64,000 bases of DNA from an uncultured Clostridia bacterium (GTDB lineage Bacteria > Bacillota > Clostridia > Saccharofermentanales > Saccharofermentanaceae): assembly GCA_946187935.1 (NCBI GenBank), contig CAMHSJ010000001.1:159102-223101 (forward strand), read 5' to 3'. A program made the translations under genes and the position numbers. The notes under the pieces were generated by a model that saw only the letters and a list, made by a program, of their open reading frames with translations, had not been told where the DNA came from and made no database searches. This document shows positions 7,595 to 13,268 of the stretch, piece after piece. How positions within the stretch are numbered: the first letter of the stretch is position 1; every line of letters begins with the position of its first letter.

Positions 7595-8080
7595 ATGGGC
7601 TCAAAAAGAGAAGACTATATCAGCTGGGATGAATACTTCATGGGTGTTGCCACCCTTGCATCCAAGCGTTCCAAGGACCCTAACACACAGGTTGGAGCCT
7701 GCATAGTCGACAAGGACAATTACATAGTCTCTGTAGGATATAACGGAATGCCCATAGGCTGTTCAGACGAGGATTTCCCCTGGGAGAGAAGCGGCGGCAC
7801 ATTAGAGACCAAGTACGCTTTCGTTACCCACGCAGAACTCAACGCGATATTAAATTCCAAGACAGCCAACCTGGAGGGCGCCACTGTCTATGTAACTCTG
7901 TTCCCTTGCAACGAGTGCACCAAGGCTCTCATCCAGAAGAGGGTTAAGAAAGTCGTATATCTTCAGGATAAGTACCACGATATGGATACCACGGAGGCTG
8001 CACGCCGCATGCTCGATGCTGCAGGCGTTATCTACGAGCAGTATCAGTCTTCCGGCAGAAAGGTAGATATCGACCTGTGA
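7595..8080 (+). CDS. Deoxycytidylate (dCMP) deaminase family protein
   Basis: HAELNAI ... PCNECTK zinc motifs; SKDPNTQVGACIV. Confidence 0.88.
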   Translation: MGSKREDYISWDEYFMGVATLASKRSKDPNTQVGACIVDKDNYIVSVGYNGMPIGCSDEDFPWERSGGTLETKYAFVTHAELNAILNSKTANLEGATVYVTLFPCNECTKALIQKRVKKVVYLQDKYHDMDTTEAARRMLDAAGVIYEQYQSSGRKVDIDL

Positions 8081-10005
8081 GTCATTTCAGATCACGGATA
8101 GCTCTTTTGATTGCAGTAATCGTAACAGCTGCATTCTTTGTTCCTTGTGTTGTTTGGGCAGATCCTTCAGGTACGGCCAGCAGCAATTGCTGGGGCAATG
8201 GAGGACAGCTCGAAGTTGCGCTTTCAGGCTGCAGCGGATATGGCGAGATAACAGTAGTAGCTGAGTTCAGCGGAACTGTTACAAGTGCATCAGGCTGGGG
8301 GTTTGACACATATACAGTTGACGGCAGCAGGGTCACTGCCACGGTATCCGCATCGGGTCCCAACAGCTGGGGCTTTGACAGTAACGTCGGCATTCAGGTA
8401 ACGGGATCAGGCATCACATCAGCTTCGCTCATTTCGGTAACGGGCAGCGGAAGCGGCAGCACTAATAACAACAATAACAATACCCAGCAGACTCAGCAGA
8501 CATCTTCGGGAACAGTTCCCGAGGCACCTGCGGTCCAGGGCGTGGCCGGTGACGACTGGCTTACGACAAACGGCAATCAGATCGTTGACATGAACGGGAA
8601 GGCCGTATGGCTTACCGGCTGTAACTGGTTTGGATATAACACAGGAACGAATCTTTTCGACGGTGTCTGGAACTGCAATCTCGAACAGTCGCTCAAAGGG
8701 ATCGCAGACAGAGGTTTCAATGTCTTAAGAGTCCCTTTCTCTGCTGAACTCATCCTTCAGTGGAAGAATGGCAATTTCCCTCAGGCCAACTACAACAACG
8801 CATATAACGAGACACTTAATTCAATGAACTCGCTCGAGATATTTGACTATGTCCTTAGTCTCTGTGAGCAGAATGGTCTTAAGGTTATCATAGACATCCA
8901 TACTGTTAAGACTGATGCTTCAGGTCATAACTATCCTTTATGGTACAGGGAAGACATGACCGAGGAAGACTTCATCGAAGCTCTGGTGTGGCTTGCTGAC
9001 CGTTACAAGGACAACGACACGATAATAGGACTCGATCTTAAGAACGAACCTCACGGCAAGGCTTCCGAGACAGACCATGCGATATGGAACGACTCTGATG
9101 CCGCGAATAACTGGAAGAGGGCAGCCGAGGCTGCAGGCAATGCCGTATTAGACGCTAATCCTCATCTTCTGATAATAATCGAGGGCATCCAGATGTATCC
9201 CATAGATCCCTCGAGCAATGATTTCACTTCAGCAGATGACGATGATTACTATAACACCTGGTGGGGAGCCAATCTCATGGGCGTTAAGGATTACCCTATA
9301 GATTTTGGGAGCCCTGAGCGAAATGCGCAAATAGTTTACTCCCCTCACGATTATGGTCCTATCGTGTACATGCAGCCCTGGTTTGAAGGAGGCTTTACAT
9401 ACGACTCGCTTATGGAAGATGCCTGGTCAGATTACTGGCTCTATATAAGTGATGAAGGCATCGCTCCCATCTTTGTAGGTGAGTGGGGCGGCTTTATGGA
9501 AGGCGACAATCTCACTTGGATGGAGTATTTCAGGGATCTTATTGCAGACAGGCATCTGAACCACACATTCTGGTGTTATAATGCCAATTCGGGTGATACG
9601 GGCGGACTCGTCAAAGACGACTTCGTTACCTGGGACGAAGAGAAATATGAGTTTGTAAGGCCGGTGCTCTGGCAGACTGAAGAAGGACAGTTCATAGGAC
9701 TTGACCACGCCATTCCGCTTGGAGCAAACGGCATCAGCTTATCTGACTACACGGGAGAGATAGTAACTCCCGTATTGCCGTCTCATGAGACATCTGAGAG
9801 CGCTGTTGCATCAGGCGGGAGCGAAGCTTCGGCTGCTGCGGGATCTATAGAGACAATGCCTGCCGCAGTCCCCAAAAGAGGCAGCTTATCCGGCAGGGAT
9901 GTGATCGCGATGCTCGTATTCACGCTCATCGGATTAGGTTTTGTTTCGGGTATAGTGTTTATCGGGTTTAAGCTTTATAATCTAGTGAAGAAAGATACGA
10001 AGTAA
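8077..10005 (+). CDS. GH5-family glycanase/cellulase with N-terminal CBM-like domain and C-terminal TM anchor
   Basis: GTG start overlapping the preceding stop; signal peptide; beta-rich N-terminal domain; Asn/Gln linker; GFNVLRVPFSAE, DLKNEPHG, VGEWGG typical of GH5; C-terminal TM helix then KLYNLVKKDTK. Confidence 0.85.
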   Translation: MSHFRSRIALLIAVIVTAAFFVPCVVWADPSGTASSNCWGNGGQLEVALSGCSGYGEITVVAEFSGTVTSASGWGFDTYTVDGSRVTATVSASGPNSWGFDSNVGIQVTGSGITSASLISVTGSGSGSTNNNNNNTQQTQQTSSGTVPEAPAVQGVAGDDWLTTNGNQIVDMNGKAVWLTGCNWFGYNTGTNLFDGVWNCNLEQSLKGIADRGFNVLRVPFSAELILQWKNGNFPQANYNNAYNETLNSMNSLEIFDYVLSLCEQNGLKVIIDIHTVKTDASGHNYPLWYREDMTEEDFIEALVWLADRYKDNDTIIGLDLKNEPHGKASETDHAIWNDSDAANNWKRAAEAAGNAVLDANPHLLIIIEGIQMYPIDPSSNDFTSADDDDYYNTWWGANLMGVKDYPIDFGSPERNAQIVYSPHDYGPIVYMQPWFEGGFTYDSLMEDAWSDYWLYISDEGIAPIFVGEWGGFMEGDNLTWMEYFRDLIADRHLNHTFWCYNANSGDTGGLVKDDFVTWDEEKYEFVRPVLWQTEEGQFIGLDHAIPLGANGISLSDYTGEIVTPVLPSHETSESAVASGGSEASAAAGSIETMPAAVPKRGSLSGRDVIAMLVFTLIGLGFVSGIVFIGFKLYNLVKKDTK

Positions 10006-10024: not shown

Positions 10025-10846
10025 ATGGATAAGATCATCAATTGGTACAACGCCGAGATAGGCATGGAAGGCACACTGGTAATAATGTTCGTTGTTGCCG
10101 TCCTGTTTATCTTGTGGTTTATCGCACTGATCCTGCGCGCCAAGGACAAGAGCAAGGATAAGAACACGAACAGATGGATCAAGAAGAAGCGCGAGATCCA
10201 GGTCATCAAGGGTGTTGCCGAGAGGCAGAGGGTTGATGACGGCAGCAATCAGGAACTCAAGCCGGTATTCATCAATACAGAAGGCGAGCCTACAGTTATC
10301 AACGGCTACTATCAGAAATCAAATACAGCCCCCATAAGGCCTGTATATTCAAATACCCATACTGCGCGCCGTGTTCAGATGGAAGAACTCGAATCTGAGA
10401 GGATAGGTGCGGAAGCTTATACTTCAGCTCTTGTCATGAATTCTTCTGCTCCTTCAGCAGTGCTCGAGACAGGATCTGTTCCTCAGAAGGTCAAACCTAC
10501 AAAACTTAAGCGTCCGACGGCTGCGAAGACCTCTGCTTCAGACGTTCAGCCTGCTGAAGCTGTGAATCCTGATGATGGAGAAGACAGCGCTTCTGCTTCC
10601 ATGTATCAGGGAGGCATCCGCCCTACTGTCGGAAGCGAAGTTGCCAATGCCGTAACCGAGCGTCCTGCAGAAGTTCAGGAAGAGAAGCCTGATATCTTAA
10701 AGTACGGTGAAGAGGCCATAATCCCTGCCGCAACGGCTCCTGCTCCGGGATTTGCTTCAGCAAAGAAGGGTCCCATCAAGCGCCCCAAGTCAGCATCGAT
10801 AACAAAAAACATTAAGGAAGATGAACCTTCTGGAACCGAAGACTGA
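10025..10846 (+). CDS. N-terminally membrane-anchored protein with low-complexity tail carrying an IKRPK motif
   Basis: One TM helix near the N-terminus; tail contains APIRP, KLKRP, GGIRP and GPIKRPKSASITKN. Confidence 0.75.
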   Translation: MDKIINWYNAEIGMEGTLVIMFVVAVLFILWFIALILRAKDKSKDKNTNRWIKKKREIQVIKGVAERQRVDDGSNQELKPVFINTEGEPTVINGYYQKSNTAPIRPVYSNTHTARRVQMEELESERIGAEAYTSALVMNSSAPSAVLETGSVPQKVKPTKLKRPTAAKTSASDVQPAEAVNPDDGEDSASASMYQGGIRPTVGSEVANAVTERPAEVQEEKPDILKYGEEAIIPAATAPAPGFASAKKGPIKRPKSASITKNIKEDEPSGTED

Positions 10847-10979: not shown

Positions 10980-13268
10980 ATGAGTAATAAGAGCAATAAG
11001 TTGTCCAAAGTTATTGCAGTCTTGATCTGTGCAGTATTTGCATTTTCGTTAGGTTTATCATTCAGTCAAAGAGAAGTTTACGCAGACGGTACCGTTGAAG
11101 TCGGTATGCAGGGCGGCGGTGATGCAGACCACCAGATCTTTTATATCAACAGCTGGGGTTACGGCAGTGATGTAACATCCATCACGGTCACGGTAAACCT
11201 AAACCATTCAGCCGACGGATTAAACGAGCCCTGGGGTGCATCAGGCAACGTTTTAAGTCTGAGCGGCGAGTACAGCCAGAATATCACGGTCAAGGTCAAG
11301 CCCAACAAGTGGGTAGCGATCGAAGTATCGGGCACAAATATCGATGACCTCAGCGCGACCAAGGGCAATGTATCTGTTCAGAGGTCATCTGCTGCACCTA
11401 CAACCCAGACGACGACAGCTCCTACGACCAGAGCTACAACAGCTCCGACCACACGTGCTACTACTGCTGCAACACAGGCACCGACACAGGCTACCACCGC
11501 AGCAACACAGGCTCCTACTCAGGCAACTACTGCTGCGACACAGGCAACCACTGCGGCAACACAGGCTGCACCTGTAGTCCAGACCACTGCTGCAACACAG
11601 GCAACAACTCAAGCTACTCAGGCCTCAACTACAACAGCAGCTACTACTGAAGCTGCGGAAACGACTCAGACAGAAGCTGCTCTTGCAGGTGATGACACAG
11701 AAGAAACAAGTGAAGCCACTCTTGTTTCCGCAGTCGGGGAAGTCGTTGAGGGCGAGACCTACGATGAGACAGTGGTAATGGATGAGACTCACGAAGACGG
11801 AACACCTGTAGTAATGGGATTTGTTCATGTAAACCCCGATCAGGCATCTCCCAATACCCCCAATGGAAAAGCTTCAGCTAAGTGGTTATGGTTCATTTTC
11901 CCTGTGCTCCTTGCAGGCGCAGCTTACTTCAGATTCAGGAATCTCAAGAACAAGGGTATGGACGGCAAGGACATAGCTCTTAACTTTATCCCCGGAACAT
12001 CCGGAATAGTTTATGCAATAGGAAACATCATTCCTTCCAAGCAGACAGTTTCGGCTGACGCATCTTCAACCCAGAAGTTCAACCAGGCAACTGCCATGAA
12101 GGAATTAAGACAGATGGAAGAGGCTAATGCCAGGGAGGATGCTAAGATGCATACTACCCAGCATGCTCCGATCAAGCGTCCCAAGGAACTCTCGGTTAAT
12201 AGAGCCCAGGCAGCAGTTACTGCTCCTGCGGTCAAGGCAGCTCCCACTCAGCATGCGCCCATCAAGAGACCCAAGGAATTATCTGTTAACAGAGCCGCAC
12301 AGGCATCTTCCGTTGCAGCAACAACAGCTGCGGTCAAGACAAGACCTGCTGCTCAGGCTGCGGCAAAGACCAATTCAGATAATCCTGCCGTTATCGCTGC
12401 AAGACAGAGGGCTGAAGCTGCCAAGGCTCAGATCGAGATGCGCAAGCAGGAAGAAGCACGTAAGAACAACGAGAAGAAGCTGGAGGAGATCAGGCAGCGC
12501 CCCCCAATAAAGAGACCTAAGAACCTTTCTGTCAACGCTGCCCAGATAAAGGCACAGCAGGCTCCCGCTGCCAAGGAACCCGTAATGGGCATTGGTACGG
12601 CTGCATCCGTTAAGGCTGCCAGGGAACTTGCAGACATGAAGGCCAAAGAGGTAGCAAAAGCAAGACAGGAAGCTGAGAGAGCTCAGCAGGAGATGATAAA
12701 GGCTGCTATAGAAGCCAGAGAGGCGGAGGAAAGAATGCAGACGATAGGTGCCGTTGAGAAGACAGCTAATGACAGTGTCTATATGCCCCGTGAACACAAG
12801 AAGACCGGTTCAGACAACAACCAGCTTGGAAGTCTCATGAACGGCAAGGTACAGAATTCCGCATCAAGGGCACCTGTTTGGGCAGCTCCCGGAATGGCAG
12901 GCATCAACCCTTTCAAATCTAATGTTTCAGAAGAACCTGCTATTGAAGAGAAGAAGAATGAGCCCAAGGCTTCAGTTCCTGAACAGCCGCAGCAGCATGC
13001 CAGCATTGCTGACCAGACGACGAAGAGATCCGCTTTCTTCGACAGGGCAAAGGCAAGAGCAGAGGCAAACGCGGCTGTCGCATCTGCTTACGGCGGCATC
13101 GTAAGACCTTCTGCCGCAGCAGATGATGAAAGAGATACCAATAAGGCACCTGCCATGGGCGCAGCGCTTGAAGGTCAGCGTCCTGCGATAATGAACAACG
13201 GTACTGATCCGGCGCCCACGGCGACCAGACCTCTTGCCGGATTCAAGGGCTCAGAAGAAAGCGTTTGA
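10980..13268 (+). CDS. Single-pass protein: signal peptide, CBM-like domain, Thr/Ala/Gln linker, TM, long tail with IKRPK repeats
   Basis: ATG at 10980 after a G-rich RBS (the listed start at 10929 is a TTG inside the palindrome); MSNKSNKLSKVIAVLICAVFAFSLGLSFSQREVYA signal; linker about 11391-11670; tail repeats HAPIKRPKELSVNRA x2 and PPIKRPKNLSVNAA. Confidence 0.8.
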   Translation: MSNKSNKLSKVIAVLICAVFAFSLGLSFSQREVYADGTVEVGMQGGGDADHQIFYINSWGYGSDVTSITVTVNLNHSADGLNEPWGASGNVLSLSGEYSQNITVKVKPNKWVAIEVSGTNIDDLSATKGNVSVQRSSAAPTTQTTTAPTTRATTAPTTRATTAATQAPTQATTAATQAPTQATTAATQATTAATQAAPVVQTTAATQATTQATQASTTTAATTEAAETTQTEAALAGDDTEETSEATLVSAVGEVVEGETYDETVVMDETHEDGTPVVMGFVHVNPDQASPNTPNGKASAKWLWFIFPVLLAGAAYFRFRNLKNKGMDGKDIALNFIPGTSGIVYAIGNIIPSKQTVSADASSTQKFNQATAMKELRQMEEANAREDAKMHTTQHAPIKRPKELSVNRAQAAVTAPAVKAAPTQHAPIKRPKELSVNRAAQASSVAATTAAVKTRPAAQAAAKTNSDNPAVIAARQRAEAAKAQIEMRKQEEARKNNEKKLEEIRQRPPIKRPKNLSVNAAQIKAQQAPAAKEPVMGIGTAASVKAARELADMKAKEVAKARQEAERAQQEMIKAAIEAREAEERMQTIGAVEKTANDSVYMPREHKKTGSDNNQLGSLMNGKVQNSASRAPVWAAPGMAGINPFKSNVSEEPAIEEKKNEPKASVPEQPQQHASIADQTTKRSAFFDRAKARAEANAAVASAYGGIVRPSAAADDERDTNKAPAMGAALEGQRPAIMNNGTDPAPTATRPLAGFKGSEESV
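11391..11670 (+). repeat. Thr/Ala/Gln-rich degenerate repeat coding for an extracellular linker
   Basis: Repeated ATTAATQAPTQATTAATQ units with synonymous variation. Confidence 0.8.

Follow-up and report, generated by a model that had tools for sequence, protein, structure and literature searches.

Results

Architecture of the locus

The window, by which we mean the whole 64,000-nucleotide stretch of DNA that was analysed, contains a GH5 cellulase gene followed on the same strand by the genes of a small transmembrane (TM) protein and of a scaffold-like type I membrane protein. The features of the locus are as follows.

8077..10005, + strand: GH5 cellulase with an N-terminal beta domain and a C-terminal TM segment (PF00150, E=1.3e-49)
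10025..10846, + strand: small TM protein, 273 aa (ORF; 19-sequence orthologue alignment)
10301..10357, + strand: near-invariant motif NGYYQKSNTAPIRPVYSNT, with NGYLQKSNTAPIRPVYSNT in most orthologues (orthologue alignment)
10496..10528, + strand: second basic-proline motif PTKLKRPTAAK, PTALKRPTAAR in most orthologues
10772..10798, + strand: PIKRPKSAS, fourth copy of the motif, within the small TM protein
10980..13268, + strand: scaffold-like type I membrane protein, 762 aa (ORF; AF2 architecture)
11085..11381, + strand: extracellular beta-sandwich-like domain, similar to the one at the N-terminus of the neighbouring GH5 enzyme
11886..11951, + strand: TM helix, then the basic stretch FRFRNLKNKG (AF2 helix 303-324; conserved juxtamembrane block)
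12168..12200, + strand: motif copy 1, PIKRPKELSVN, in a predicted disordered segment (AF2 pLDDT<50)
12258..12290, + strand: motif copy 2, PIKRPKELSVN (AF2 pLDDT<50)
12396..12446, + strand: helix AARQRAEAAKAQIEMRK ahead of copy 3 (AF2 helix 469-506)
12504..12536, + strand: motif copy 3, PIKRPKNLSVN, conserved in the relatives L031 and L032
Wild-type motif peptide: KPPIKRPKSASVNRA

The order GH5, small TM protein, scaffold, SDR and carbohydrate esterase is kept in most loci of the genus, which was sampled as Saccharofermentans-like rumen MAGs (one close relative has been submitted under the name Saccharofermentans sp.). A search at E<=1e-5 detected scaffold homologues in 52 of 59 genus genomes, a count that includes the query itself. 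In one subclade, a radical SAM/SPASM protein (closest to TIGR04133 of the rSAM/lipoprotein system at 267 bits, below the 425 cut-off) is accompanied by a small protein with repeated VYGPPP between scaffold and SDR (L055:12231-13313, L040:12283-12594, L044:7263-7601); this is apparently a peptide-modification pair inserted into the locus, and the window is without it.

The scaffold-like protein is composed of a signal peptide, a beta-rich ectodomain, a Thr/Pro linker, one TM helix and a tail of ~437 aa, and neither the protein nor the tails gave a Pfam, NCBIfam or PDB-sequence match. Its ectodomain is 31-33% identical to the N-terminal domains of the GH5 enzymes; the AF2 model of this domain is all-beta with a pLDDT of 68, and a Foldseek search with it returned no significant match (best E 0.007, to a chitinase, with weak hits to CBM, CBD and Ca-binding beta domains). 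By the positive-inside rule, the C-terminus would be cytoplasmic. The tail, with a pI of about 9.8, is predicted to be largely disordered: in the AF2 model, which was built on a 3-sequence alignment, it has low confidence except for its helices, and all three motif cores lie outside helices at pLDDT<50. On the extracellular side, the juxtamembrane block VVEGETYDETVVMDETHEDGTPVVMGFVHVNPDQ at 11700-11880 is almost invariant in the window, L031 and L032, while the adjoining linker varies.

The small TM protein has an N-terminal TM segment followed by a predicted cytoplasmic tail with three KRP/IRP-type motifs. A second motif, NGYLQKSNTAPIRPVYSN, was matched in 45 of the 59 genus genomes against 0 for the control, and as a rule a genome has a single match. 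Some species carry it in the small protein and others in the tail of the scaffold, indicating that modules are exchanged between these tails.

Copies of the motif

The preliminary description had placed a three-copy PIKRPK(E/N)LSVN repeat in the scaffold tail and a related copy in the neighbouring gene, and both were recovered: PIKRPK starts at 12168, 12258 and 12504, and PIKRPKSAS at 10772. Searched as a DNA pattern, PIKRPK has exactly 4 matches in the whole 1.95-Mb assembly, every one at this locus (control 0), and when the tail was shuffled 100,000 times, 115 shuffles held at least one P[IV]KRP and none held at least two; these counts rule out a chance origin of the repeated motif. A proteome-wide spread is likewise ruled out by the 10 matches to P[IV]KRP in the genome, four of which lie at this locus, one in a coiled-coil protein described below and one in a polynucleotide phosphorylase (GVPIKRPVAG), the others being in short or unlikely frames. 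An enzyme with the segment GVPIKRPVAGI, presumably polynucleotide phosphorylase, also matches the pattern in L128, L107, L112 and L113; the segment is conserved, the enzyme is unrelated, and we take its match to be a coincidence.

Copies 1 and 2 encode identical peptides although 5 of the 11 motif codons differ; 9 codons and one amino acid separate copies 1 and 3, and 6 codons and one amino acid separate copies 2 and 3, as expected from the earlier statement that the peptide is kept while synonymous positions diverge. The 60 nt flanking the copies are only 23-42% identical, and matching copies are present in relatives, three in L031 and two in L032. Dissimilar flanks, synonymous divergence and copies common to orthologues rule out a recent DNA duplication, in agreement with the preliminary description. 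Yet copies 1 and 2 most likely arose by an internal duplication long ago and were afterwards kept by purifying selection, because the 17-aa segment TQHAPIKRPKELSVNRA is common to both, and their origins would then not be independent.

Selection and sequence logo

The codon-level comparison proposed in the preliminary description was made with NG86 between the window and the orthologue L031. The motif windows (3x13 aa) gave a dN of 0.051 and a dS of 1.76, against a dN of 0.309 and a dS of 1.49 in the rest of the tail; dS is near saturation, and the safe number is the roughly sixfold contrast in dN at similar dS, drawn from a motif sample of 39 codons. Purifying selection thus bears on the motif far more strongly than on the tail around it.

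A logo of 64 scaffold instances and 23 instances from other proteins reads [KR][AP]-P-[IV]-K-R-P-x-x-[LFYA]-[ST]-x-N-[HR]-A, with 3-4.3 bits over P-[IV]-K-R-P and about 1 bit upstream. The residues P, R and P show practically no variation (>4 bits), the first P being fixed by construction of the collecting pattern (of the type P-[IV]-[KR]-[RK]-[PS]), which left the Arg and the second P free. Lys replaces the Arg in 0 of the 64+23 instances, though the pattern allowed K. Ser is found at its position in 47/64 scaffold instances and in 21/23 of those in other proteins. In one subclade PI[KR]RPKNELTPEQ replaces the standard form, and several species retain only the PI[KR]RP core, with xNELTPE after it, so that the SVN half must be dispensable in some of them.

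Distribution and natural variants

The pattern P[IV]KRPxxxSxN is present in 78 of 87 same-genus genomes and in 4 of 103 others in the order (the genus split was counted from the table), the latter being near the rate of a reversed-pattern control, which matched 7 of 190 genomes. The preliminary description had named orthologues lacking the motif or varying freely within it as evidence to the contrary; this objection fails, as the motif persists across the genus, and selection on a short linear motif is supported jointly by this distribution, the dN contrast and the logo.

Beyond what had been described, the motif is also present in an unlinked soluble coiled-coil family, and homologues in a sister genus (g5) are without it. 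Proteins of the soluble family are about 440 aa long and begin with a short N-terminus, M-x-x-I-L-x-V-F-K-G-K, followed by the helix ARERAEAAKAQIEARKA, the motif LKPPIKRPxSASINRAQ and a long Ala/Glu coiled coil with a pI of about 4.7; the member in the genome under study lies at C8:51877. The profile built from this family (A5) matches the stretch at 12396..12446 with E=2.6e-11, and the helix-then-motif module is common to the family and the third scaffold copy. This longer shared module makes common descent of the two copies by shuffling likely. At E<=1e-8 the profile of the family matched 52 of 59 genus genomes, with G011 and G015 matched only through the scaffold. These two genomes (loci L032 and L031, respectively) are the nearest relatives of the window and have 2-3 scaffold copies of the motif, and the profile did not find the coiled-coil family in them, which reflects either loss or gaps in the MAGs. 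It follows that the coiled-coil protein is not strictly required, unless it is simply missing from these MAGs.

All 23 genomes of g5 are without the strict pattern, and ten of its coiled-coil homologues as well as the scaffolds of three genomes are without PIKRP. Scaffold homologues of g5 occur as tandem pairs beside a citrate-synthase-like gene, not GH5 (L182:7446-10488, L183:3491-6515, L185:3625-7090), and their tails carry NGYLQKP...IRPVRSN. In one aberrant species, G013, the scaffold and coiled-coil homologues are again both without PIKRP; in the GH5 tree, which was used only to place this species, it forms a long branch beside G130 and G038. The co-absence in g5 and G013 supports a shared role, and it may represent a single evolutionary event. 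The motif also persists through gene fission: G012 and G120 have separate genes in place of a single one with the scaffold tail, encoding a TM protein, a soluble protein with PIKRP and a tiny one with NGYLQ...IRP, and the motifs are retained.

Discussion

At the level of sequence, the motif described here works like a short linear motif (SLiM). It lies in segments predicted to be disordered (low AF2 pLDDT and no helix at the three cores, with only 3 sequences aligned), it is conserved above its flanks in both dN (0.05 vs 0.31) and information content, and it recurs across the scaffold, the small TM protein and the soluble coiled-coil protein. An Arg that is never Lys, together with fixed prolines, points to recognition by a specific pocket rather than bulk charge. 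We propose, with a probability of roughly 0.55, that PIKRP-x-x-[LFYA]-[ST]-x-N is a SLiM that docks three client types on one putative cytoplasmic hub and thereby clusters a surface complex. On the cytoplasmic face of the membrane, the motif would dock into a hub pocket that is shared by all three clients, namely the scaffold-like TM protein, in which as many as four copies occur, its small TM neighbour and the unlinked soluble coiled-coil protein. Such docking could cluster a surface complex of the GH5 cellulase and the carbohydrate-binding-like ectodomain, and could tie this complex to a cytoplasmic coiled-coil rod.

Several other explanations have to be weighed against docking on a common hub. 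The basic motif region of the scaffold could bind the acidic coiled coil directly, with no separate hub, as would suit the pI values of the tail and the coiled coil (about 9.8 vs about 4.7) and the co-occurrence of the two proteins in most genus genomes. We consider this unlikely, since the coiled-coil protein itself bears the motif, which would be odd in a pure receptor, since G011 and G015 keep the motif with no coiled-coil protein detected, and since charge alone is insufficient where Arg is never Lys. Even less probable are basic-proline patches that would bind acidic lipids or nucleic acid with no specific protein partner: a basic motif within a basic tail is in line with them, but the invariant prolines, the Arg-not-Lys preference and the downstream S-x-N-[HR]-A exceed what charge would need, and the tail of the small protein is near neutral (pI 6.6).

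Two further explanations concern the second half of the motif. The conserved Ser (Thr in the LTPE form) could be phosphorylated and read by an FHA-type protein, an idea slightly less likely than direct contact with the coiled coil; its frequency among the instances and the presence of at least one FHA domain in each of 13 tested genomes are in its favour, but FHA domains are found equally in the motif-lacking G013 and g5 genomes. FHA domains moreover prefer phospho-Thr, and S-x-N-[HR]-A is also compatible with a helix N-cap. Alternatively, the motif could be a structural joint or helix cap that starts adjacent helices with no partner at all, as the helices on its flanks would allow and as the xNELTPEQIAERE form, which apparently continues directly into a long helix, would suggest; the upstream P-I-K-R-P and the recurrence in three protein contexts are not required for capping, however, and of the four explanations this appears the most improbable.

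Two candidates of known type were rejected. A bactofilin-linked complex was dismissed on finding bactofilin in 0 of 13 genomes, and an SH3-type polyproline ligand with a PxxP core on the spacing of the invariant prolines, which is P-x-x-x-P.

Short linear docking motifs are known from the disordered tails of bacterial proteins, the C-terminal peptide of FtsZ being one example. Like such peptides, the PIKRP motif is short, repeated or recurring, and strongly conserved in a fast-evolving disordered tail near membrane or coiled-coil parts; unlike them, it is of basic-proline type, occurs in three families (two membrane, one soluble) and is confined to one genus as far as searched. A literature search for the peptide string 'PIKRPK' found no precedent.

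With regard to polysaccharide degradation, RsgI anti-sigma factors of cellulolytic clostridia have an N-terminal cytoplasmic domain and a C-terminal sensor (PMC12203970, PMC4711584). The scaffold-like protein resembles them in the degradation context and in a general plan that joins, through a TM segment, an ectodomain for polysaccharide binding to a signalling part in the cytoplasm. It is opposite in orientation, with the signal peptide and ectodomain N-terminal, and this, together with the lack of a Pfam or NCBIfam match, led us to reject an RsgI-type anti-sigma factor. It also resembles cellulosome scaffoldins, being a candidate non-catalytic organiser that has a carbohydrate-binding-like domain and whose gene adjoins that of a GH5 cellulase, but its repeated elements are predicted to lie inside the cell, not outside, and a scaffoldin was rejected as no cohesin or dockerin Pfam match was found in it.

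Networks in which a docking motif joins several proteins have been well characterised in eukaryotes, but far less in bacteria. In the present case, the motif is sharply defined by orthologues of dozens of species, and nature also offers variants with several copies, with a split gene or with no motif. If its partner ties a surface cellulase complex to a coiled coil, the system would illustrate a way in which a rumen bacterium without a cellulosome could arrange the breakdown of fibre on its surface. An integrin-like linkage from outside to inside, in which the TM carbohydrate-binding protein would connect through KRP motifs and the hub to a coiled-coil filament and cluster the cellulase at the plant fibre, is a speculative extension that we hold about as improbable as phospho-regulation.

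The scaffold tail contains other conserved peptides at 12800-13130, NQLGSLM, APxWAAPGMAGINPFK, RSAFFD and YGGIVRP, which are probably further motifs.
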